The translations under genes were made by a program, and so were the position numbers. Under the pieces are notes generated by a model, which did no database searches, had not been told where the DNA came from, and was given only the letters and a program-made list of their open reading frames with translations. Positions 79 through 17,235 of a stretch of 40,389 bases of DNA are shown here, piece after piece (within the stretch, counting starts at the first letter, position 1; the number at the start of each line of letters is the position of its first letter). Origin of the DNA: Vampirovibrio sp. (lineage in GTDB: Bacteria; Cyanobacteriota; Vampirovibrionia; Vampirovibrionales; Vampirovibrionaceae); the NCBI GenBank assembly GCA_019634025.1, contig JAHQWC010000035.1, forward strand, positions 1 through 40,389. Reading direction: 5' to 3'.

Positions 79-726
79 TTAGAGTGGGCGCAGATAAAGC
101 TTTAGACGCAAATCCATTTTCACTGGTTTAAGCAAGCCAACATCTACTTGGCCTTTCACCGCATCAGTACGGTTAGGACCAGCTTCGTTTTCAACTCGGA
201 TGGTCGCCATTTCCACTAATTCTTTTTCCCGGCTCACAGCGGCAATAAAATCAACTAAGCTGCTGTACGTCCCCCGGACCGTCATATCATATTGAAAGCC
301 TTTAAGTTCAATGGGAGGAGGTGCTTCCTGTTCTTCAGGAGGTTTTCCAGCTTCTGAGGGTGGTGTGGGAACAGAGAACACCAAGTTATCTTGTTTTTCC
401 AGAGCCATTACCTGGTTACCGGAACCATCAGCAATGTCCACAATGTTGTCTAAAATGACTTTCAGATGCTCTTCTAACTTATTGGGTTCAAAGCGTCGAA
501 TAGTTATACCTTCCGGCAGTTCAACTTTTTGCTTGTATCGCTCCAAGTCTTTTTCCGCCCCTTCTTTCTGAGCGGTCAATAACGCCACCTCATCTTTCAG
601 GGCACCCACTTTACCCTGCTTGACCATCATATCTTTGATGGCAGGTTCGGTAAACGTAAACCCGACAAATACAGCGGCTGCAATACCTACAGCAGATATC
701 AGCATCACTTCACGACTTGAGACCAT
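79..726 (-). CDS. pilO: Type IV pilus inner-membrane protein PilO
   Basis: This 215-residue protein has the PilO layout. A very short cytoplasmic N-terminus leads into one membrane helix (about residues 8-26), then a coiled-coil stretch (about 35-66) rich in Lys, Glu and Gln, then a periplasmic ferredoxin-like domain containing the motif MTVRGTYSSLVDFIAAVSRE (about 148-167). In known systems PilO pairs with PilN to link the cytoplasmic PilM ring to PilP and the outer-membrane secretin. A Pro/Glu-rich insertion (about 121-138) interrupts the periplasmic domain. The gene follows the pilM-pilN fusion with no spacer: the TAG stop of that gene directly abuts this ATG, so the two are surely cotranscribed and probably translationally coupled. 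Bases 1-78 downstream hold no complete gene; a PilP or PilQ gene beyond the edge would be expected but is not seen. Confidence 0.85.
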   Translation of the reverse strand: MVSSREVMLISAVGIAAAVFVGFTFTEPAIKDMMVKQGKVGALKDEVALLTAQKEGAEKDLERYKQKVELPEGITIRRFEPNKLEEHLKVILDNIVDIADGSGNQVMALEKQDNLVFSVPTPPSEAGKPPEEQEAPPPIELKGFQYDMTVRGTYSSLVDFIAAVSREKELVEMATIRVENEAGPNRTDAVKGQVDVGLLKPVKMDLRLKLYLRPL

Positions 727-2307
727 CTACTGCATCCCCCCAGATTGGCCCGCAACCTCCGTTGGAGAGGCTGGAGAAAGTGCATCGGCATTTAAATTGG
801 CATTCATATCCGTCGTGAACTCAAAGACTTTGGTAGATTCAATAAAGTTTTCTTTCACCGACGTTAACAAGACTTGTTGAATATAGGGCAGTCGATCGAA
901 ACTACGGCTAAAAGTAATCACATCCTGTTCATTCATCGATTTACCTTGCACGGCAATCTGATTATCTAGTGAAACATCGGTCAGCCAAATCGTATTAGGC
1001 GTTTGAGACCGAAGGTTTTGAGAAAATTTCACGAAAAGCGTATTCCGCTTTTTGGCATCTCGGGCAATATTCACAATCAACTGCTGAACGGCAGCATCGG
1101 CTTTTAATTCCTCAATCTGACTATTCAGAGAAATAATATGGTTCAACGTATCTTGTTTTTCGGTCTCCAGGGTGTCAACCTGCTGACCTAAAAACAAACC
1201 ACCATAAAGACCCGCAACCAGCCAGCCACCTAATACTAAAAGCCATAGAAGCACAGCAGCACCTGCAAGCAGGCCAGCTAAGGGATTATTTTTTCCCTCT
1301 TCCGAAGACTGGCTCGATGATTTGCCGATATTCATCGGCGTGGTGGCATGATCCAACCCAGCCATCAGATCAAATTCCATGGGGAATGGAACACTCGATT
1401 TCATGGAAACCCCCACACTGGAAAGCAAAGCCAGGGGTTCAGCAGTCATTAAGCCAGGCCCAACAAGACATGGCGTAAAGGGGGTCATTAACTGCTCACT
1501 TAACGCCTGATTAGCCGCCGGCGTTAGCCGTTCTGTTAACCACACGGCAGGTTTATAAGTCTTCGTGGTCCGCTGGATTTCTTCCGCCAGCTCAGAAATC
1601 GCTGGAGAAGCTTGCCCCGCCATCTCCAACTCACGAGTCTCCATATGAACTTCGCGTAGCTCAAGCAGATTACTTCCGCTCCATATGAAAAACCTGATGC
1701 GGTCTTCTTCGACAAACAATGTTCCCCAAATGGCATCGGGACCGATTTGCTGCACCAGGTTATCCAGCACCCCACTACCAGCCATGCCGCGCAAGGTGTT
1801 CAAGGGGTTTAAATCTATGGACGCCGGCTTGACCTTGGCCAGTTGCAATGCTTTTAAATAGCCTTCCAGCGCATCCTGCCGGACGGCACCAAAGATAACC
1901 CGCTCAGCTCCGCCAGCAACGGTATCACTTTGAATCGTGGAGAAATCCACCACCGCTTCAGTATCATCAAATGATTTATATCGTTCCGCCTCACTGGAAA
2001 GGGAGATATAAAACTGATGCGGATCCATCTTCGGCATTTCCACCATCCGCAGCAAGGTCGCAGGAATGGATAGGTGGACATTTTTACTTTTGGCGCCTAA
2101 TTGTTTCAGCAATTGCTGAAACATCCGGCCCAATTCTGCCGGGTTGGCAACACGATCCCCCGCTTCTCCCAACACACCGGGCGGCATGGCCAAACTGGCT
2201 GACTTTTCAATCCCGAAGCCTTTTTTTGAGAAAACGACGGCTTCTACCACCGAAGTGGTAACAGAGATACCAACATTAGATTGAATACGTTTTTTGTTTT
2301 GAACCAC
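727..2307 (-). CDS. PilM-PilN fusion protein, type IV pilus assembly
   Basis: A 526-residue protein joins two proteins that are normally separate. Residues 1 to about 320 resemble PilM, the cytoplasmic actin-like protein of type IV pili, including a segment around 160-172 (KPASIDLNPLNTL) typical of PilM/ComA-type folds. A Ser/Glu/Asn-rich linker (about 328-342) leads to one membrane helix (about 345-373), a coiled coil (about 375-415), and a periplasmic PilN domain with the signature around 436-470 (TIWLTDVSLDN, then AVQGKSMNEQDVITF). In ordinary systems PilN binds PilM through a short N-terminal tail; the fusion makes that contact covalent. The usual PilM start (GxDIG-like nucleotide-binding loop) is replaced by VGISVTTS, so ATP binding may be lost. 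The start is GTG at 2307, with AGGCGG eight bases upstream. The family call is firm for the PilN half and good for the PilM half. Confidence 0.82.
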   Translation of the reverse strand: MVQNKKRIQSNVGISVTTSVVEAVVFSKKGFGIEKSASLAMPPGVLGEAGDRVANPAELGRMFQQLLKQLGAKSKNVHLSIPATLLRMVEMPKMDPHQFYISLSSEAERYKSFDDTEAVVDFSTIQSDTVAGGAERVIFGAVRQDALEGYLKALQLAKVKPASIDLNPLNTLRGMAGSGVLDNLVQQIGPDAIWGTLFVEEDRIRFFIWSGSNLLELREVHMETRELEMAGQASPAISELAEEIQRTTKTYKPAVWLTERLTPAANQALSEQLMTPFTPCLVGPGLMTAEPLALLSSVGVSMKSSVPFPMEFDLMAGLDHATTPMNIGKSSSQSSEEGKNNPLAGLLAGAAVLLWLLVLGGWLVAGLYGGLFLGQQVDTLETEKQDTLNHIISLNSQIEELKADAAVQQLIVNIARDAKKRNTLFVKFSQNLRSQTPNTIWLTDVSLDNQIAVQGKSMNEQDVITFSRSFDRLPYIQQVLLTSVKENFIESTKVFEFTTDMNANLNADALSPASPTEVAGQSGGMQ

Positions 2308-2736: not shown

Positions 2737-3171
2737 TTATCGTTCGCTCAAAAAGCCAATGACACCGTAAGCGGCGCTTCGTTGTAATTTCTTTGGCGCT
2801 TGCTGTATCAAGCGGACACATTCTGCCACAACGGGATCCGTGTTACTCAAATCCAAGCTAATAGACATGTGTGGTGGTTTATTTTCTATTTTTTGAGTCA
2901 TGCCATGCTGATCTCCCCTGGAAGAGTTAGCCCCTTCTACATCAAAGAAAGACTCCATCGACTGATTATACAGAGTTGATAGCAGAAACAGCTCCACAGC
3001 ATCCAACTTGCGGGTCCCTCTTTCCAAGGCTGAAATGGCGGACACGCCTACTTTAAGATGCTTGGCAACTTGTTGTTGTTTCATTCCAACCTTTAATCGC
3101 GCCTGTCGTAACCGGGCGCCTATCTGTTTTTGATCCGGAAAGTTGGGATATGTCGGCCCTAGTTTCTTCAT
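2737..3171 (-). CDS. XRE-family helix-turn-helix transcriptional regulator
   Basis: This 144-residue protein has an N-terminal Cro/C1-type helix-turn-helix domain (about residues 17-75). Its recognition region contains MKQQQVAKHLKVGVSAISAL followed by ERGTRKLD, the classic XRE pattern. The C-terminal half (about 80-144) has no recognised sensor or oligomerisation domain; it ends in a helical segment with PVVAECVRLIQQAPKKLQRS. The start is ATG at 3171, with a weak purine stretch (GAAGAAA) upstream. It is divergent from the folate gene, so it might control itself or that gene from the 175-base gap between them, but no operator could be assigned. No toxin gene adjoins it, so a toxin-antitoxin role is not supported. 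Confidence 0.85.
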   Translation of the reverse strand: MKKLGPTYPNFPDQKQIGARLRQARLKVGMKQQQVAKHLKVGVSAISALERGTRKLDAVELFLLSTLYNQSMESFFDVEGANSSRGDQHGMTQKIENKPPHMSISLDLSNTDPVVAECVRLIQQAPKKLQRSAAYGVIGFLSER

Positions 3172-3346
3172 AGATTTTCTTCAAATACTTTCGTTAGATA
3201 TAAACTCCGTTTATCTAGCAGGCTATTTAAAAACCCCAGCTCTTAAACCCGCCTTACAAAGGTGTCGGTGGATCATCTGAAATCTTTTGTTCTCCATGCA
3301 CATCTCCTTTAAACTAACCAAAAGTGTTCCGTTTTCGATAGATTTT

Positions 3347-3973
3347 ATGCTCATGACAGATGTACCCAACAAAACACTAGATTCAGATAAGCGAGAAGCT
3401 CGAAAGAAGGCAAAACAGTTACGCCTTGGCCTGGATACACAAGGTATTAGCCAACATATCCTCCAGCAACTAGCTGGCTTACCAGAATTCAGGGCGGCTA
3501 GGCAGGTGTTGGCATACTACCCACTATCTGCCCAACCCTTCAGCATAGCAGAAATTGACCTACTTCCCCTGATGACGACACCGGAAGGAAAGCTGAAGGC
3601 TTGGTTTCTCCCCAGAATGCAACCGCAAGAACGCCTGACGTTTCATCGTTATAAACCCGGAGATCTATTGGAATCAGGTGCCTTTAATGTACAAGAGCCT
3701 GCCGCCTCTTCAAAAGTCTATCAGTGCGGGCCTCAGTCGCATGATATGTTGCTTCTACCAGGACTGGCTTACGATACGTCAGGCCATCGCCTCGGATACG
3801 GTAAGGGGTACTATGATCGGTTTATCGCCGGGCTACCTGCGTTCCATAGCCTAACGCTTGTAGGGAGCGCGCCCGAGGCACTTGTTTGGCCAAGCCTTCC
3901 AGCGGATGAATGGGACCAGCCTGTTGATATTCTGGTGACAGAAACTCAGGTATACCGCCCCAAAAGACAATAA
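3347..3973 (+). CDS. 5-formyltetrahydrofolate cyclo-ligase (MTHFS, YgfA family)
   Basis: This enzyme converts 5-formyltetrahydrofolate to 5,10-methenyltetrahydrofolate using ATP, returning a stored folate to one-carbon metabolism. The protein is about 208 residues, normal for the family. It shows the N-terminal basic motif DKREARKKAKQLR, the conserved segment DMLLLPGLAYDTSGHRLGYG and the hallmark GKGYYDRF that contacts the nucleotide and folate. The frame stays open upstream to a TTG at 3287, but alignment with the family favours the ATG at 3347 or at 3353; neither has a good ribosome-binding site. In many bacteria 6S RNA lies just upstream of this gene. The 175-base gap here has a suitable size, but I could not recognise the 6S fold in it. 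Confidence 0.9.
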   Translation: MLMTDVPNKTLDSDKREARKKAKQLRLGLDTQGISQHILQQLAGLPEFRAARQVLAYYPLSAQPFSIAEIDLLPLMTTPEGKLKAWFLPRMQPQERLTFHRYKPGDLLESGAFNVQEPAASSKVYQCGPQSHDMLLLPGLAYDTSGHRLGYGKGYYDRFIAGLPAFHSLTLVGSAPEALVWPSLPADEWDQPVDILVTETQVYRPKRQ

Positions 3974-5077: not shown

Positions 5078-6016
5078 CTATTGGCCTAGTTGAATTCTGG
5101 AAACGGTATTGGTTTCTTGTTCAGAAACATACAGCACGTTGTTATTTGCATCCAGCAGTAAGTTATAAGGCTTGTTCAACCCATTGGCCAATTCCGTAAC
5201 ACTTCCATTGGAATTCACACGAGCAATGTTGTTTTTGAGGTAGTTGGCCACATACAAATTGCCGTTTCTCGGATCACGGACCAAGCCAATGGGACCACCC
5301 AAGCCGTCGCCTTCGACAAACATGGATTTATTCCCTAACGTGTCTACTTTGTAGATGGCGTTTTTGGAGTAGTTGGCCACAAAAATCGATCCATCTGGTG
5401 CAATGGCCATGCCGGTAGGTCCCAAAAAGCCTTTGGCAAATGTGTTGGCCGGATACTTTACCGTAATTCTGTCGGAGGCCGGCTGAGTCGTATGAGTATT
5501 GCTCTGGCCTGTGTGTTGATGTGTTTGCCCCGTGTTGGCAGACGCCGTTTTATTTTCAGACAACTTATGCAGGGAGGCGACTTTTTTCTGGGCCATTTGA
5601 TACTTGGGATCGTGAGCCGGAATGCTTAAAAAGGTTTGAATGGCAGCCGGGTACTGTTCCATTTTTTGGTAGCACAGCCCCATATTATAGCGAGCCTGGC
5701 CATCCGCCGGGTTGAGTTGCACCACTTTGGTAAAAGCCTGCAAGGCTTGAGGATATTGACGCATTTCGTAGTGGATGGCGCCGAGGTTAAAATACGCTTC
5801 AGCATAGTTTGCATCTTGGCGAACAGCCGCCTGAAACTTGGTTAAGGCTTGTTGAGTATTCCCTGCCCGGTAAAAATTATAGCCTTCGTCAAACAAGGCC
5901 ACGGCTTGCTGAGATTGAGCAAAAGCGCCGAAAGATGTGGCCAGCAATGCACCTGCTGTAGCACCGACACAAAGGGCTTTCATCAGATGATTTTTTTGCG
6001 TTGCAAATATGCTCAT
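5078..6016 (-). CDS. Exported TPR and NHL-type beta-propeller protein
   Basis: The 312-residue product begins with a signal peptide (hydrophobic core about 13-30, AFA then Gln as the likely cleavage point near 33). Three tetratricopeptide repeats follow (about 35-140; for example YAEAYFNLGAIHYEMRQYPQ and QARYNMGLCYQKMEQYPAAI), then a His/Thr/Gln-rich linker (about 155-182). The C-terminal part (about 190-312) consists of NHL/SMP-30-like propeller repeats such as GPTGMAIAPDGSIFVANY, GPIGLVRDPRNGNLYVANYL and KPYNLLLDANNNVLYVSEQ. TPRs bind proteins and NHL blades bind diverse partners, so this is probably a periplasmic scaffold. Three blades are too few for a closed propeller, so it may oligomerise. 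The start at 6016 is chosen over 6127 because GAGGTAA precedes it and it places the signal peptide correctly. A TATAAT box lies on the minus strand at 6082-6077. Confidence 0.8.
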   Translation of the reverse strand: MSIFATQKNHLMKALCVGATAGALLATSFGAFAQSQQAVALFDEGYNFYRAGNTQQALTKFQAAVRQDANYAEAYFNLGAIHYEMRQYPQALQAFTKVVQLNPADGQARYNMGLCYQKMEQYPAAIQTFLSIPAHDPKYQMAQKKVASLHKLSENKTASANTGQTHQHTGQSNTHTTQPASDRITVKYPANTFAKGFLGPTGMAIAPDGSIFVANYSKNAIYKVDTLGNKSMFVEGDGLGGPIGLVRDPRNGNLYVANYLKNNIARVNSNGSVTELANGLNKPYNLLLDANNNVLYVSEQETNTVSRIQLGQ

Positions 6017-10685: not shown

Positions 10686-13463
10686 TTAAATCCTGCCGAC
10701 TAATTCAGGATGTTGAGCAAACTCGTCAGCCGCTATCCAACCCTGACTTGCCCGGTAGCGATACAGAGGCTTGTCACTCTCATAATCAATGGCCATCAGG
10801 TGAATCCACTCGTTATCGCACAGCTGTTTCAGCACAGGCTGCCGCTCAACAATATCCAGAATGCGTTGCCGGGGCGCTTCAATGGCGACAAATAGCCGTA
10901 ACGGTTCATGGTAAGTCAGCTCCCCCTGCGCCATAGACTGAATAGGCAGTCCTGTTCGCAAATCGCTTTGGGGACCAGCCATAATGCCGACACGCCCGAC
11001 CACATTGTGATAAACCTTGCTGCCGCTTCCGTAAATATCGGGATCGGTGGCCGAAAAATAATGTTCGGCGTTAATCCACTGACCCACCACCATGGGGCCC
11101 ATTAAAATGCCTTCCAGCAGAGCGCCGGTGGGATCCAGCCGGTAATCATGGGAATTGAGAAAGGCCCTGCCTTCCAGGTTTAAGTCTTGGGTCAGGGTGC
11201 GCCGGCCAATAATAAATGAAGCGTTGCCTGATAGCCCCCACTCCGGACGGGTTTCACTCCAGTCGCCGGATCTGCGACGGGCTTCCTGGACTGCACCAGA
11301 CGGTGATACGTCTTTATCCACGCCCGGCAGACGCAGGCATCGCTCCAGATTATTCTTCACCGCCGCTTTTTGCAGGTCTGCCTGCAAGCGTTTGACATCC
11401 TCGCGGTGGGTCTCGGGCAGATCTTCCAGATCATACAAGTCCACCGCATCGGTGGTGGTGTTGTGCACGCCGCCAATAAAATGTGTGTCGTCTGGAATCA
11501 CAATGCCGTTTTTCGCCAGGGCCTGCCGAATATTTGTTTTGTTGGCAATGGCCGCAAACAGCCGGGCATTGGGCTCGCCTGAATTACCACCGCAGGCGCC
11601 GCAGTTCAGGGCGGCGTCAAATGGGTTGTTGTCTGACATACTGGTGTGCCCGCCCACAATGACCAGACGGCCAAAGTTCTCCGTCAGACCCATGGTTCGC
11701 AGGGCCCCTTCAATGCTGGCGATTTGTTTTTCCTCGCTCAACCCGCGTCCTGCATCGTCTTCATCGGCAGTCATTTTAGTGATGACCGGTGGGGCAATCA
11801 TCTTGCCAATCCGCTCATTCCATTGACGGTAGATGCCGGGAAAAAAGGTGCGCTCAATCAGATGCCATCCAAAAAACCAGCCAATAGACTCCACCATGAT
11901 GTAGGGTGTCAGCACATGGCTTTTCAGGTCGTGCAGGGTGTCGTGCAGCATATGAAAAAATTTAACGCCGGCGTTATGGGCGGCTTCCCCGTTATCCTGG
12001 CCGTCCCGGACAACCTCGTGAACGGTATAAGCAGGCTTGAGGATGGCGGGGCACTGATCGGTTTCGTGGTGGTGGTCTAGCGCCTGGCAGCTGATGGGAA
12101 TACCAAAAAATCCGGCAAACCCGATGGTTTCATAGTTGTCCACAGACTCCAGGTTTCGCCGGAACGGTTCTGAACGGACATCAATACAAAACATGAGCTG
12201 CGCCAGGGGCCGGCTTTTTTGCGAGTCATCCGGCTGATTAGAAGCGGCTGTTTGAATCTTGCCAATCAGGTCTTGGTGGTATCCGGCCTCGTAAGCATTC
12301 AGCCAGATCGGCCCGTGGTCTGATTCTGGAAATGCATCCAGCCATGACAATAATTGCTGCAGCTGGTCGTCGGTGGCCGCTTCAAGTTTATTTTGCGATA
12401 CTCCAAGCACATTGGCCAGCGTATTCAGCCGCCAGGCTGCCGCCAGCCGGGCATGTTCTGATGTGCCGGAATACGTGGCCTGATTGTGTTGGATATGCGA
12501 GACAATGGTGGTATACGTCCCGTCAATGCCAAGTCTGGTTCGGCAGGTTTGCTGGACCAGTTCTTTTTCGTAAAACAGACGCACGGCAAGATACTGGATT
12601 AAATCAATGGAGTGCGCTTTTTGCCAAGGGTATTCGGGATTTTCGGAACGCCAATGGATAAAGCTTGCCCAGCCGTATAAGGCCGTTAGGTGATGGGACA
12701 GGTAATCTTGCCGAAGATCTTCTGGAATGGCGAGCGAGTCAAGATGTTGCAGCAGCGCTTTTTCCGGTGATTCCGGCAGTGCGTTGATTTTGTTGCCGCT
12801 GTCCTGAATGCCACAAGGTGACCATTCTTTTGACGCCAACCGCCGCCAGGCGGCATAAAAGCCTTTTTCGCGATGAGGCATGGGCCAGGACGCCTGCCCT
12901 TCATCCATAAAGGCTTCGCACCACTTGATCACTTCGCGATCAATCTGCCAGACCAAATCAGTGTTTAAGAACTGATCGCACCAAGCCGCCGGAGTCATCT
13001 CACGCGCGACAACGGTTGTGTTGTCACCTGGCTCAGCCTTAATGTTGAGCTTTTTTGCCAACGAACGAATTGCGCGACTGTTGGGCAGGCGGTCAACCAA
13101 TGCGGGAACAGCCTGATCCAACGGCGGGGTAATGCCTTCCAGCAGGTGAGCCCGGAGAACCTCTGCATGGCGGACCGTTTGTCCGCCCAGATCTATTGTT
13201 GCGTCTTGAGCTACGGATTGAACTGCCGTGTCCAGTTGTGCAGAAGTAATTCGCCCGTTTTTGACCAGCTTTCGGTACATCTCGTTGGGCAAATAGCCCC
13301 GTCCGCCAATAAACCGGCGAGCGACGGCAGTAGCCTCGTGAAACGGATAGGTTTCCAAACTGCGGATGGGATTGTGGTGCACAAAGGTGGTCATGGGCCA
13401 GTAGTGGGCAATGACCACACTGGCTTGATGTACTAATGCATGAAGATCTGTTGCTGAAGCCAT
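10686..13463 (-). CDS. dabA: Inorganic carbon uptake subunit DabA (DUF2309)
   Basis: This is the cytoplasmic, zinc-binding partner of a DAB-type dissolved inorganic carbon pump. It resembles a beta-carbonic anhydrase site and is thought to hydrate CO2 in one direction, driven by the membrane subunit. At 925 residues it has family-typical length. The four expected metal/active-site residues are all present: Cys426 and Asp428 in LMFCIDVRSEPFRR, His606 in VIVGGHTSMSDNNPF and Cys621 in AALNCGACGGNSGEPNAR. The ATG at 13463 overlaps the stop codon of the dabB gene as TAATG, showing translational coupling. The function in H. neapolitanus and some other bacteria is established; here it is inferred from the residues and the partner gene. 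Confidence 0.93.
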   Translation of the reverse strand: MASATDLHALVHQASVVIAHYWPMTTFVHHNPIRSLETYPFHEATAVARRFIGGRGYLPNEMYRKLVKNGRITSAQLDTAVQSVAQDATIDLGGQTVRHAEVLRAHLLEGITPPLDQAVPALVDRLPNSRAIRSLAKKLNIKAEPGDNTTVVAREMTPAAWCDQFLNTDLVWQIDREVIKWCEAFMDEGQASWPMPHREKGFYAAWRRLASKEWSPCGIQDSGNKINALPESPEKALLQHLDSLAIPEDLRQDYLSHHLTALYGWASFIHWRSENPEYPWQKAHSIDLIQYLAVRLFYEKELVQQTCRTRLGIDGTYTTIVSHIQHNQATYSGTSEHARLAAAWRLNTLANVLGVSQNKLEAATDDQLQQLLSWLDAFPESDHGPIWLNAYEAGYHQDLIGKIQTAASNQPDDSQKSRPLAQLMFCIDVRSEPFRRNLESVDNYETIGFAGFFGIPISCQALDHHHETDQCPAILKPAYTVHEVVRDGQDNGEAAHNAGVKFFHMLHDTLHDLKSHVLTPYIMVESIGWFFGWHLIERTFFPGIYRQWNERIGKMIAPPVITKMTADEDDAGRGLSEEKQIASIEGALRTMGLTENFGRLVIVGGHTSMSDNNPFDAALNCGACGGNSGEPNARLFAAIANKTNIRQALAKNGIVIPDDTHFIGGVHNTTTDAVDLYDLEDLPETHREDVKRLQADLQKAAVKNNLERCLRLPGVDKDVSPSGAVQEARRRSGDWSETRPEWGLSGNASFIIGRRTLTQDLNLEGRAFLNSHDYRLDPTGALLEGILMGPMVVGQWINAEHYFSATDPDIYGSGSKVYHNVVGRVGIMAGPQSDLRTGLPIQSMAQGELTYHEPLRLFVAIEAPRQRILDIVERQPVLKQLCDNEWIHLMAIDYESDKPLYRYRASQGWIAADEFAQHPELVGRI

Positions 13464-16036
13464 TACATCCCTCCCGCTTTCCAGGCCATCGCCAATTCAG
13501 TCACCGTGGTGTTCAGCCAGTCATGGGGCATCAGGCACGGCGCAACCAGTAGCGCAATGACCAGGGCGAATACCGCAATCTCGGCAGGGCGAAGATCATC
13601 ATAACGAAGATCGTTGCGAGCTGGGCCAAACAGCAGATGCTGCATCAGTTTGAACAAATACCAGCACGCGGCAAACCAGGTGGCGATGATGACTGCCAAC
13701 CCGTAAGAGATGCCCGTTGCAGGGCTTAGCAAGATTCCCAAATACCCAAAGAAAAGCCCAAAAGGTGGCAGACCAACGGCGGCCATAATCAGCAAGCCCA
13801 TACACACCGCAAAACGGGGCATGGTGTCAAACAGGCCACCGATCTTTGTTAAATCCAAATCGCCGTAGCGGGCGCGCACCCGATCCCACAATAAAAACAA
13901 CCCGCCCCAAACCAGCGTAACGGTCCAGACATAGAATAAAGCCTCAGGTGAAATCGAGCCCGTCTGCGCCACATACCACCAGAATATGGAATAGACCGCA
14001 ATGCCGCCATACGCCAGCAGCCGGGTGACCTGTATTTGTGACAGCGCTTTTAGCGATCCCCATAAGGCACCTGCGATGGCCAGTACGCTAATGGCCGGCA
14101 GTAACTCTTTTGGGAGTTGCGGCAGAAAAGACTTTATGGCGAACACCCCAATCAACGGCATCAATACGCACAACGTTGTCGCCAAAATTTTAGGTGCTTT
14201 TGTTAAGGCTGTGACATAAACACTATGAAGGGGAAATAAGGGAACCAATACGGCAGCGGCTATCAGGAATATAATGGTCTGTCCCGATAAGCCGGAAAAC
14301 CCGATTGTTTGTGTGTAGGCCACCCCTAAGGCAATTAGCGCCACTAGAATGGAAGAAACCGGTGACTGATTGATTTGTTTGCCCATTCGTTTTAGCGTGC
14401 CAAACAGTCTCAGGGCAAACCCGTCCAGATACAGACGATTCATAAAGAATAAATACAGCGTTTCTTTCAACCCACCGGAGTCAGTTGCGCCTGGTTTTGT
14501 TTGACGGCGGTACACCGAGAAGAACCAGCCCCCGGCAATAGAAAGGGCCAGCAGCGCGGCCAGTATCAAGAACAAGCCCGGCGGCAATTCAGCGGCTTCG
14601 AGATAGGCATTGGCGGTAGCCGCATTGGGAATTAAAAAGTGGGTAAACTGTTCGGCGGCAAAGAAATAAGCGGTGGCGATGAGTGCAATACCCACCAGCA
14701 TGACCCCTTTTGTCAGCAGCGGTTTGTTTAAACGGAAAAGGGTCAGCATGGCTTGCGAAGCGGTGACCCAGCTGAACAGAAATAAAATAAACAGCCCCTG
14801 AGACTCCATAAACGAAATGCCCAGCAGTTCGTGCACACCAACGGCAATGCCCAGCGGCGCCAGAAAAGACAGGATCAAGGCCACTCCCCAGCCTACTATG
14901 CCCAGCACAGAGGTGGAGTGTGATTGTATATGTTCCGGCTTTACCTGGTGGCTGCGGGCTTCCTGAATGCCCTTGGCGCAATTCAGGAAAATATCGGCCT
15001 TGAATAGCCCGTGGGCAATCAGGTGAAACACCGCCAACGGAAATGCGCCGAGACCGCATTCCATAATCATGTACCCCATTTGCCCAATAGTAGAGTAGCC
15101 CAGACTTTTTTTGATGTCGTTTTGCACCAGCATCATGCTGCTGCCTAAAATTGCTGTGGCCAAGCCAATCAACAAAACAAAATGCAGGGTTGTCGGACTT
15201 AATATGTACAGGGGCGCCAGCCGGGTGAGTAAAAAGCCGCCGGCGTTAATGCCACCGGAGTGAAGTAATGCGTGAATAGGCGTTGGGGCATATAACGCGT
15301 CCGGCAACCACATATGCAACGGAAACTGGGCGGACTTGCTCATGGCGCCGATAAAAATTAACAGGGTTACCGCCGTCGCGCCGGTAATTTGCAGGCCGGT
15401 GCCGAACACTGAAAAGACAGTCTGATCCACCGCCGCCAGCTCAAACAGTTGCGTCAACTGGACGGTGCCGTATAAATGGTAGGCAAGGGCGATTCCTGCC
15501 ACAAAGGCCATTTCTCCCGCCCGCAAGAAAATAAAGGTTCGAAAAGCGCCATTTGCCGTAGGTACATGGGCATAGTTATGAGACAGCAAACTGAGAAACC
15601 AGCCCGATACCTGCCAAAAGATAAAGAGGGTGATTAGATCGCCACTGGATACCATAAACAGTAGCATTGACACTTTAAGGGCCAGCAAGGTTTGATAGCG
15701 GTTTTGGTGCGGGTCTTGCTGAAGGTATCGGGTGGAGTAGCGGTACAGAATCGTTCCAAACAATGAGATAACCGTCATCATGACTGCGGCTAGCCGGTCA
15801 ATGGTTATGCCTGCCGTTGGTAAAAATTCCCAAGGCGTTGAAAACAGAACGAGGTGGATCGGCTCAGGACTTTGTATTGCGTTCCAGAGCAGCGGCAGCG
15901 AGGTTAAAAACCCGGCAAATATTATCCACCAGCCAAGTGTGTAACTTTTTTTACCTACATAATTATTAGGCAACGCCGTTAGCAATGCTGCAATGAATGG
16001 CGCCATTGGAACGAGTAACGGGTATAAACTCATCAT
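13463..16036 (-). CDS. dabB: Inorganic carbon uptake membrane subunit DabB, extended with a second antiporter-like half
   Basis: Residues 1 to about 550 form a complete NuoL/Mrp-type antiporter subunit with DabB signatures: SKSAQFPLHMWLPDA (about 233-247), PTPIHALLHSGGINAGGFLL (about 251-270) and KSLGYSTIGQMGYMIMECGL (about 310-329). These helices carry the lysines and histidines of a proton path that should power DabA. The protein then continues for about 270 residues. This extra part contains FPLH (602-605), TKAPKILATTLCVLMPL (613-629), QVTRLLAYGGI (669-679) and DTMPRFAVCMGLLIMAAVGL (738-757), which match the order of motifs in NuoM/NuoN-type subunits but with key residues changed. DabB proteins known to me are shorter. 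The start is ATG 16036; a TTG one codon upstream is also possible. The 3' end overlaps dabA. Confidence 0.88.
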   Translation of the reverse strand: MMSLYPLLVPMAPFIAALLTALPNNYVGKKSYTLGWWIIFAGFLTSLPLLWNAIQSPEPIHLVLFSTPWEFLPTAGITIDRLAAVMMTVISLFGTILYRYSTRYLQQDPHQNRYQTLLALKVSMLLFMVSSGDLITLFIFWQVSGWFLSLLSHNYAHVPTANGAFRTFIFLRAGEMAFVAGIALAYHLYGTVQLTQLFELAAVDQTVFSVFGTGLQITGATAVTLLIFIGAMSKSAQFPLHMWLPDALYAPTPIHALLHSGGINAGGFLLTRLAPLYILSPTTLHFVLLIGLATAILGSSMMLVQNDIKKSLGYSTIGQMGYMIMECGLGAFPLAVFHLIAHGLFKADIFLNCAKGIQEARSHQVKPEHIQSHSTSVLGIVGWGVALILSFLAPLGIAVGVHELLGISFMESQGLFILFLFSWVTASQAMLTLFRLNKPLLTKGVMLVGIALIATAYFFAAEQFTHFLIPNAATANAYLEAAELPPGLFLILAALLALSIAGGWFFSVYRRQTKPGATDSGGLKETLYLFFMNRLYLDGFALRLFGTLKRMGKQINQSPVSSILVALIALGVAYTQTIGFSGLSGQTIIFLIAAAVLVPLFPLHSVYVTALTKAPKILATTLCVLMPLIGVFAIKSFLPQLPKELLPAISVLAIAGALWGSLKALSQIQVTRLLAYGGIAVYSIFWWYVAQTGSISPEALFYVWTVTLVWGGLFLLWDRVRARYGDLDLTKIGGLFDTMPRFAVCMGLLIMAAVGLPPFGLFFGYLGILLSPATGISYGLAVIIATWFAACWYLFKLMQHLLFGPARNDLRYDDLRPAEIAVFALVIALLVAPCLMPHDWLNTTVTELAMAWKAGGM

Positions 16037-16039
16037 CAA

Positions 16040-16386
16040 TCAGCTATCCGCCCTATATTTTTCTGAATTTGGATCAAAGATCTCTCTCTGCCCTGTCGCT
16101 CAATAATTAAACTACCCATTTTCAGAACGTATGACGCTGTTATGGGTGACTAAACTCTATAGATGATCAAAGTATAACCAAAACTCATGCCACCACCAAG
16201 GTCTTTCAAACGAATTTAAGATATCTTTCGTCAGTACTCTTCCTAGCGAAGCGCTTACACCTGTTTATTCCTCGGTCATCAACTAATCTTATAACTTTCT
16301 TTTGGATGACATGTCACTTATATCACTTCACTATCAAAATAGAAAAATTTAGTCAGAACTTTAATAATATGAGAAATGATAGCGTG
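16040..16386. other. Intergenic region upstream of dabB, with a perfect palindrome
   Basis: These 347 bases separate the carbonic anhydrase gene from dabB (both minus strand). I see no gene. The only distinct element is the ten-base palindrome TGACATGTCA at 16307-16316, which could be an operator. The region is AT-rich and probably holds the dabBA promoter, but no hexamer pair was convincing. DAB operons in other bacteria are often controlled by LysR-type regulators; none is encoded nearby. Confidence 0.5.
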
Positions 16387-17061
16387 TTAACCGGCAGCCA
16401 GCTTTTGTAGCGGGCGAACATTATATACCCCGCCAGCAACATCCTTGGTTACGTTGATGAACTGGTCTTTTTTAGGACTGTAGGCCAGCATTTTACCGGT
16501 TTCAAACTCGTACATCCAACCGTGCAACCGAACTCCTCCGCTGGCTAATTTGGCTGCAACGGCAGGTAAGGTTTGCAGGTTATGGAGTTGCAGCAATACG
16601 TTTTGCTCAATGGCTTTTTGTAGCTTTTTTGCTTCCGGCATCCGGTGATACAGGGTATCTATCATCTGGCGAATGGGTTTAGCGTGTTCCAGCCAGGCTA
16701 GTACCGTGGGTAAGTCTTTGTGTTTAGCAGGGTCGTCCAACAACGCTTGGATGGCGCCGCACTGGCTGTGGCCACAGATTACAATGTCTTTGACGCCTAG
16801 TGCATTTACGGCAAACTCAATGGTGGCAGCCTGCCCAGTGACGCCGGCGCTTACCGGCGGTACAATGTTGCCGGCATTGCGTAGGACAAACAGATCGCCG
16901 GGTTGCATTTGGGTAATGAGGTTGGGTGCAATCCGGGAGTCGGAACACGTAATGAACAAGGCCTTTGGATGTTGGCCCTTGCTTAACTTTTGGAACAATG
17001 GTTTTTGGGTTTTATAAACGTTTTTTTTAAACTGACGGGTGCCGTCAATCAGTTCTTTCAT
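16387..17061 (-). CDS. Beta-class carbonic anhydrase
   Basis: The enzyme interconverts CO2 and bicarbonate with a zinc ion. The zinc ligands and catalytic dyad of beta-carbonic anhydrases are present: Cys39, Asp41 and Arg43 in FITCSDSRI, and His98 and Cys101 in GHSQCGAI. FVLRNAGNIVPP (about 58-69), also diagnostic, lies between them. The length of 224 residues is typical. The reading frame remains open upstream to 17133, but the family normally begins as here (MKELIDGTRQF), so the ATG at 17061 is preferred although its ribosome-binding site is weak. No signal peptide is seen, so the enzyme is cytoplasmic. It lies upstream of dabB-dabA on the same strand, which supports a joint role in supplying inorganic carbon. 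Confidence 0.93.
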   Translation of the reverse strand: MKELIDGTRQFKKNVYKTQKPLFQKLSKGQHPKALFITCSDSRIAPNLITQMQPGDLFVLRNAGNIVPPVSAGVTGQAATIEFAVNALGVKDIVICGHSQCGAIQALLDDPAKHKDLPTVLAWLEHAKPIRQMIDTLYHRMPEAKKLQKAIEQNVLLQLHNLQTLPAVAAKLASGGVRLHGWMYEFETGKMLAYSPKKDQFINVTKDVAGGVYNVRPLQKLAAG

Positions 17062-17235
17062 CACTAAATTTACCCATGTATGAGATTGGATGCTTAAGGC
17101 ACACACTTTAACACGAATGTAGTGGGCACCCATAAGGTGTTTGAGGATTTTAACCGCTTCAGGTACACTAATAGTAGATTATGTGGGGAATAACTCGGGT
17201 GCTTTCATCCGTTTTAAAACAATTTCCCAGCAGAT

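Follow-up and report, generated by a model that had tools for sequence, protein, structure and literature searches.

PilM–PilN fusions as such are already known. GspL is the textbook case (as presented in PMC10191384): in GspL, EpsL, and PulL a single chain joins a cytoplasmic domain with a PilM-like actin fold, through one membrane helix, to a periplasmic domain resembling PilN; GspL works with a partner of the GspM/PilO type. A PilM–PilN fusion has also been described in the type IV pilus system of Clostridioides difficile (PMC6916266), and the two proteins are fused in most pilMNOPQ clusters of Campylobacterota (PMC11870540); the passages of these two papers that deal with the fusions, which we set beside our gene by description, mention neither a lost nucleotide site nor a duplication. 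In Thermus and Pseudomonas, by contrast, PilM and PilN are products of separate genes, and PilM has both the acidic residue of the phosphate loop and a lysine. This lysine, Lys-26 in Thermus PilM, adjoins the ATP phosphates, and a passage of PMC6325625 reports that K26A abolishes ATP binding and that PilM-K26A, although ATP-free, can still bind PilF and stimulate it when PilN is present. The premise of the sequence-only reading from which we started, that PilM and PilN are normally separate, therefore suits photosynthetic Cyanobacteria (see below) but not the systems in which fusions have been published, namely GspL/PulL, C. difficile, and most Campylobacterota.

We analyzed a window of 40,389 bases, which is the entire contig C20 of a Vampirovibrio sp. 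genome assembled in 161 contigs with a completeness of 78.7%. Positions 727 to 2307 of its minus strand hold a frame of 526 aa with a GTG start, here called FUS1; the plus strand over the same positions is full of stops. As had been proposed from the sequence, this single frame contains a PilM-like domain, a linker, a membrane helix, and a PilN domain, and the frame itself, Pfam, and hydropathy all bear out this order. The PilM-like actin-fold domain covers residues ∼6 to 307 (positions 1387–2292, minus strand), including a Pfam PilM_2 match at residues 13 to 167 (36.4 bits; cut-off 27), and the PilN periplasmic domain (PF05137, 41 bits; cut-off 22.8) covers residues 430 to 500 (positions 808–1020, minus strand). 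The linker, residues 316 to 345 (positions 1273–1362, minus strand), is marked by low pLDDT and leads into a hydrophobic segment from residue ∼346, predicted from hydropathy to be the single transmembrane helix (positions 1204–1272, minus strand); the helix in the structural model runs from residue 353 to 435.

The AlphaFold model of FUS1, built from seven sequences, had a mean pLDDT of 75, with values below 50 at residues 323 to 357 and 360 to 376. Residues 6 to 307 of the model aligned with Thermus PilM (2ych_A) over 291 residues with a Z score of 26.1 and an rmsd of 3.4 (VIA-align). When the model was searched with Foldseek, PilM chains held ranks 1 to 10, FtsA followed from rank 11, and GspL appeared at ranks 31, 32, 34, and 35; the GspL structures 4pht_Y and 1yf5 reached E values of ∼5e-8 to 8e-8, behind PilM and FtsA. 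Actin folds filled the list of fold matches. In a PDB sequence profile search with FUS1, all matches with E < 0.001 were PilM or PilN entries, and no GspL or T2SS family was among its Pfam and NCBIfam matches, searched to an E value of 1. FUS1 missed the cut-off of the NCBIfam pilM family TIGR01175 (53.4 bits versus 133), on which a fusion from family f4 scored 183.6 bits. FUS1 thus differs from GspL in lying closer to the PilM fold, in matching PilM and PilN families and no T2SS family, and in occurring in genomes with PilT.

Right after the FUS1 stop codon, a gene for a 215-aa protein (positions 79–726, minus strand) is followed by the end of the contig 78 bases further on. The protein had no Pfam match. 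Its structural model (mean pLDDT 60) gave nine matches with E < 0.001, all PilO or Amuc_1100, of which the best were 3jc8_Oa and PilO 2rjz/5uvr (E 2e-7 to 6e-4), and we therefore call it the PilO-like partner; its place beside FUS1 is reminiscent of GspL with its GspM/PilO-type partner. In 11 of the 12 genomes inspected, the gene after FUS1 lies on the same strand and encodes a one-helix protein (the window and L055, L056, L058, L060, L061, L064, L066, L089, L090, and L092, with G014, locus L063, as the exception). Beyond the PilO-like gene, we noticed no pilus genes around FUS1 in the inspected loci; FUS1 and its partner are not beside pilus motor, pilin, or secretin genes. Upstream of FUS1 lie a gene for a small HTH protein (positions 2737–3171, minus strand) and a 5-formyltetrahydrofolate cyclo-ligase gene (positions 3287–3973, plus strand), an arrangement also found in L056, L058, L061, and L066. 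Six of the seven f4 loci show a prepilin-peptidase-like gene (identified by eye) and two one-helix genes flanking the fusion, and the remaining locus is truncated; the one f4 one-helix neighbor tested was PilO by Pfam (36.3 bits). A prepilin-peptidase-like gene precedes the fusion in f4, f5, and f8 (L068, L077, L078, L080, and relatives). The f5 fusion is shortened (444–473 aa), and in none of the four copies tested did its PilM part pass a PilM profile of our own making.

A sequencing error, or a stop codon lost between the two domains, had been named as a possible cause of the fusion. This was ruled out by relatives and by a survey of the class. A search with the window protein gave matches in 21 of 39 genomes (its own included), and 17 FUS1 copies, counting the window, align along the whole frame, the other 16 being 19 to 39% identical to it. 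Across Vampirovibrionia, PilN scored above the Pfam cut-off in 119 of 146 genomes; 120 of the 123 matches sit in frames of 447 to 772 aa, in which the presence of PilM was confirmed by alignment for the fetched copies alone, and every one of the 119 genomes has at least one such frame. Outside the class, 95 of 100 PilN rows (93 genomes) among the matches listed sit in frames no longer than 370 aa, one of them, of 53 aa, being a fragment. PilM and PilN occupy separate frames in 18 of 20 loci from other families of the phylum (L134–L153), which we take for photosynthetic Cyanobacteria; in L150 PilM alone passed, and in L153 PilN alone. Their unfused PilM is ∼370 aa long and their PilN ∼250 aa. 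The survey of related genomes that had been suggested thus bore the fusion out, and we conclude that the fusion is real and common to the whole group.

Within the class, the three PilN matches in short frames were G116:C126, G010:C159, and G131:C9. In G116 and G010 (loci L075 and L076), PilM and PilN are separate within a pilMNOPQ-like cluster, the tail reads INLLP or INLIP, and the sequences look proteobacterial; these are probably contaminating contigs, and both genomes also carry fusions. The genome of the window, whose organism is related to a predatory bacterium, groups with Vampirovibrionales, six named loci going with its closest relatives (two of Vampirovibrio chlorellavorus, two of Vampirovibrio sp., one of a Vampirovibrionales bacterium, and one of a "Cyanobacteria bacterium"); families f4 and f6 would be members of Obscuribacterales and Gastranaerophilales, respectively. 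A candidate second PilM in the same genome (G000:C150, a PilM_2 match) was rejected as an MreB-like frame of 352 aa by its sequence, judged by eye, and not a pilus gene.

PilN normally docks into PilM by its cytoplasmic tail, which FUS1 had been thought to lack. The literal INLLP is indeed absent, but a tail-like segment lies right behind the PilM domain, in a form that is degenerate in the window: residues 308 to 315, FPMEFDLM (positions 1363–1386, minus strand), within PFPMEFDLM. Relatives have FPFDMNFL and the like, and several show LNFL, LNLL, MNFL, or LNIL where the window has FDLM. Column 397 of the FUS1 alignment (D313 in the window) is N or D in all 17 copies and is the sole such column among 673. 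Unfused cyanobacterial PilM stops (...GLGLREV) ∼10 residues short of the motif, where FUS1 runs on to FPFDLNIL or similar, and unfused cyanobacterial PilN begins with MYSLDVNFLKDR or similar. In FUS2, the second fusion described below, the motif is LNLL, LNFL, MNLL, or INFQ in 8 of 11 copies; most of the 13 f6 fusions have F[ND]F-type motifs at a similar place; and f4 fusions have TVDLDLN[KR] or close variants instead of an LNFL-type motif. We found no clear counterpart in the alignment for the f5 and f8 fusions. Model residues 9 to 319 aligned with residues 10 to 366 of 5eou_B, by title and molecule name a PilM:PilN1–12 chimera, whose residues 355 to 366 would, from the chain lengths, be the PilN part. 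Because of the position of the motif and the range of this alignment, docking of the tail in cis is plausible in FUS1. Thermus and Pseudomonas PilM with PilN share the PilM fold and the PilN domain with FUS1, and apparently also a PilN-tail-like segment.

We compared the nucleotide-binding opening of FUS1, NVGISVTTSVVEAV, with those of Pseudomonas PilM, LGIDISSTSVKLLEL, and Thermus PilM, LGLEIGASALKLVEV, and confirmed that it is changed, as had been read from the sequence. In the altered phosphate-1 opening, residues 12 to 22 (VGISVTTSVVE; positions 2242–2274, minus strand), S15 replaces the acidic residue and E22 the equivalent of Thermus Lys-26. In an alignment of 105 sequences, the acidic residue was D or E in all PilM of proteobacterial type (2/2), in all cyanobacterial PilM (19/19), in all unfused PilM from other classes (5/5), and in the fusions of f4 (19/19), f8 (6/6), and f5 (7/7). 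It was S in 17/17 FUS1 and 13/13 f6 sequences, N, H, or A in 11/11 FUS2, and F, Y, or V in the four fusions from other classes. Lysine occurred at the Lys-26 position solely in the two proteobacterial-type PilM and in 0/17 FUS1, where the position was acidic in 14/17 (13 E and one D; the rest were one S and two G), as it was in 11/11 FUS2 and 13/13 f6. Elsewhere it was N, T, S, Q, or A in cyanobacteria, T, S, or N in f4, V, I, or S in f8, a gap in f5, and V or L in other classes. The Asp of the phosphate-2 motif, read by eye, is mostly kept in cyanobacterial PilM and missing in FUS1. Residues S15, W194, and G195 are present in 17/17 FUS1, and W209 is nearly invariant.

By these residues, the nucleotide pocket of FUS1 is dismantled at both phosphate motifs, and since the acidic and Lys positions are replaced, FUS1 is unlikely to bind ATP as Thermus PilM does. 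The earlier suggestion that an ATP-dependent switch may have been lost is therefore supported by sequence for FUS1 at both motifs, but it does not extend to fusion in general: the f4 fusions keep the acidic residue, and the loss of lysine is not tied to fusion, because unfused PilM of cyanobacteria (0/19 K) and of other classes (0/5 K) also lack it. PilM of photosynthetic Cyanobacteria, from the same phylum, shares the missing lysine with FUS1 and differs in being encoded apart from PilN, in keeping the acidic residue, and in mostly keeping the phosphate-2 Asp.

The genome also encodes a second, diverged fusion of 483 aa, FUS2 (G000:C51:11809–13260), followed by a one-helix gene. Among the 39 genomes searched with a FUS2 profile, long matches were found in G000, in six of the nine other family members (not in G001, G003, or G009), in each of the eight remaining genomes of the order, and in the four f6 genomes; FUS1 is the sole copy found in G001, which is a single contig, and in G003. 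We built a careful tree of the PilM domain from 63 of the 104 rows of a quick tree; long branches were flagged in both trees, HofM was excluded from both, and Escherichia coli GspL (branch 3.73) was excluded from the careful one. In the careful tree, FUS1, FUS2, f6, and the four fusions from other classes fell together (100/99), and a separate group held unfused PilM and f4 (98/91), in which f4 was placed next to the unfused PilM from other classes (95/83); in the quick tree, E. coli GspL joined the FUS group weakly (73). A clade of the class fusions alone, leaving out those of other classes, was rejected (AU p 2.9e-6), and all fusions held as one clade were not (AU p 0.197); the FUS lineage thus appears to predate Vampirovibrionia. 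The other-class genomes G150, G159, and G172 have a separate PilM or PilN plus a FUS-type fusion. Such fusions adjoin pilin-like genes in L127, L128, and L133, and the one in L127 is also near an apparent platform end and ATPase start (named by eye from sequence); these loci look like a second, T2SS-like machine. Compared with the Amuc_1101 family (NF045709, 608 positions), the f4 fusion matches positions 59 to 493, over the PilM domain and membrane helix, and FUS1 matches weakly (31.4 bits versus a cut-off of 650).

Because no motor, pilin, or secretin genes adjoin FUS1, its link to a machine comes from genome content only. Besides a Tad-like cluster, the genome has two PilB-type ATPases, one of them in a frame interrupted by a contig end, as well as PilC, two PilT-family ATPases (512 and 439 bits; cut-off 319), and three secretins. 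Two long secretin genes, for proteins of 666 and 806 aa, lie in tandem at positions 5098 to 9522 of contig C76 (L052), with no pilus neighbor of clear identity. A PilT-family ATPase scored above the cut-off in 18/18 genomes of the order and 32/39 relatives. All 32 genomes with PilT also have a PilM–PilN fusion, as does one of the seven without PilT (G022, f8), a company that comes mostly from two families lacking both and so does not represent independent events. Six genomes of the class, in f7 and f9 (G021, G023, G026, G028, G031, and G036), have neither PilT nor a fusion above the cut-off, which suggests that they lost the whole pilus system.

The main rival to a pilus platform is that FUS1 is the GspL of a T2SS-like (pseudopilus) machine, the genome running two machines with two fusions. 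We consider this a serious but unlikely alternative. GspL has the same fused architecture and groups, if weakly, with the FUS sequences; the other-class relatives adjoin pilin-like, platform-like, and ATPase genes; the secretins of the genome have slightly better scores for GspD than for PilQ; and two ATPases of the PilB/GspE type are present. However, both of these ATPases match PilB better than GspE, the fusion's family matches are free of GspL and T2SS, PilM entries rank above GspL structures, the fusions occur together with PilT ATPases, and part of PMC4451040 describes type IV pilus genes and visible bundles of pili in V. chlorellavorus. Together, these data favor a place for FUS1 in a platform of the type IV pilus type over a T2SS-like role.

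We were also concerned that FUS1 might be an accessory or decaying copy, with a working PilM and PilN elsewhere in the genome. The second, paralogous fusion on C51, the degenerate tail motif in the window, and the incomplete assembly would fit such a copy, yet we found no separate pilM or pilN in this 78.7% complete genome, the open frame of FUS1 is conserved across the order, mostly with its PilO-like partner, and the lone FUS1 of G003 and of the single-contig G001, which is 94% complete and in which no other PilM or PilN was found, had already weakened this explanation; we regard it as very improbable. Somewhat less remote, though still improbable, is that the PilM part binds a nucleotide or another ligand in a rebuilt pocket. 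Strong conservation of the replaced positions (S15, E22, W194, G195, and W209) is more readily explained by a new function than by drift, but neither the acidic residue nor the lysine adjacent to the ATP phosphates is kept, and the conserved tryptophans may be simple core packing.

We therefore favor, with reasonable though not full confidence, a model in which FUS1 and the PilO-like protein constitute a nucleotide-free, cis-docked inner-membrane assembly (alignment) platform of a type IV pilus-type machine. The cytoplasmic PilM part would serve as a structural adaptor that keeps the PilB/PilT motor ATPases near the membrane, as the PilM and GspL literature suggests, and the membrane helix would join it permanently to the periplasmic PilN part, which would pair with PilO. 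Whereas PilM ordinarily receives the PilN tail from a separate polypeptide, here the short segment behind the PilM domain would serve as the tail and dock in cis. Because the acidic and basic phosphate contacts are lost, the adaptor probably works without ATP. A broader version, which we put forward only tentatively, is that the two fusions of Vampirovibrionales and those of f6 belong to an ancient lineage between PilM/PilN and GspL, with the tail docked permanently and no nucleotide site, that replaced ordinary PilM/PilN as pilus platform and amounts to an ATP-independent, always-engaged PilM; in that version the lineage predates the class and coexists with unfused PilM/PilN in the phylum's other classes.

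Our literature search, outside of which most subscription papers lay, found no published report of the fusion in Vampirovibrionia. What appears to be new is that a fusion lineage of long standing lacks a nucleotide site and has been duplicated in Vampirovibrionales. These bacteria provide a natural experiment on whether pilus assembly depends on PilM binding ATP and on the PilN tail docking and releasing: docking seems to have been made covalent in the entire class, and in part of the class the ATP site seems to have been dismantled as well, with PilB and PilT kept. The type IV pilus gene list of a published Gastranaerophilales genome comprises pilA, pilB, pilC, pilT, and pilD and no pilM or pilN, as given in a portion of PMC5877343; the fusions in f6, which we take without proof for Gastranaerophilales, may explain this annotation gap.

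Elsewhere in the window, positions 10,686 to 17,133 of the minus strand hold a pair of genes for DabA (896.8 bits) and a DabB-like (NuoL-type) protein beside a carbonic anhydrase gene, an apparent cluster for inorganic-carbon uptake in a presumably nonphotosynthetic Vampirovibrionales genome.
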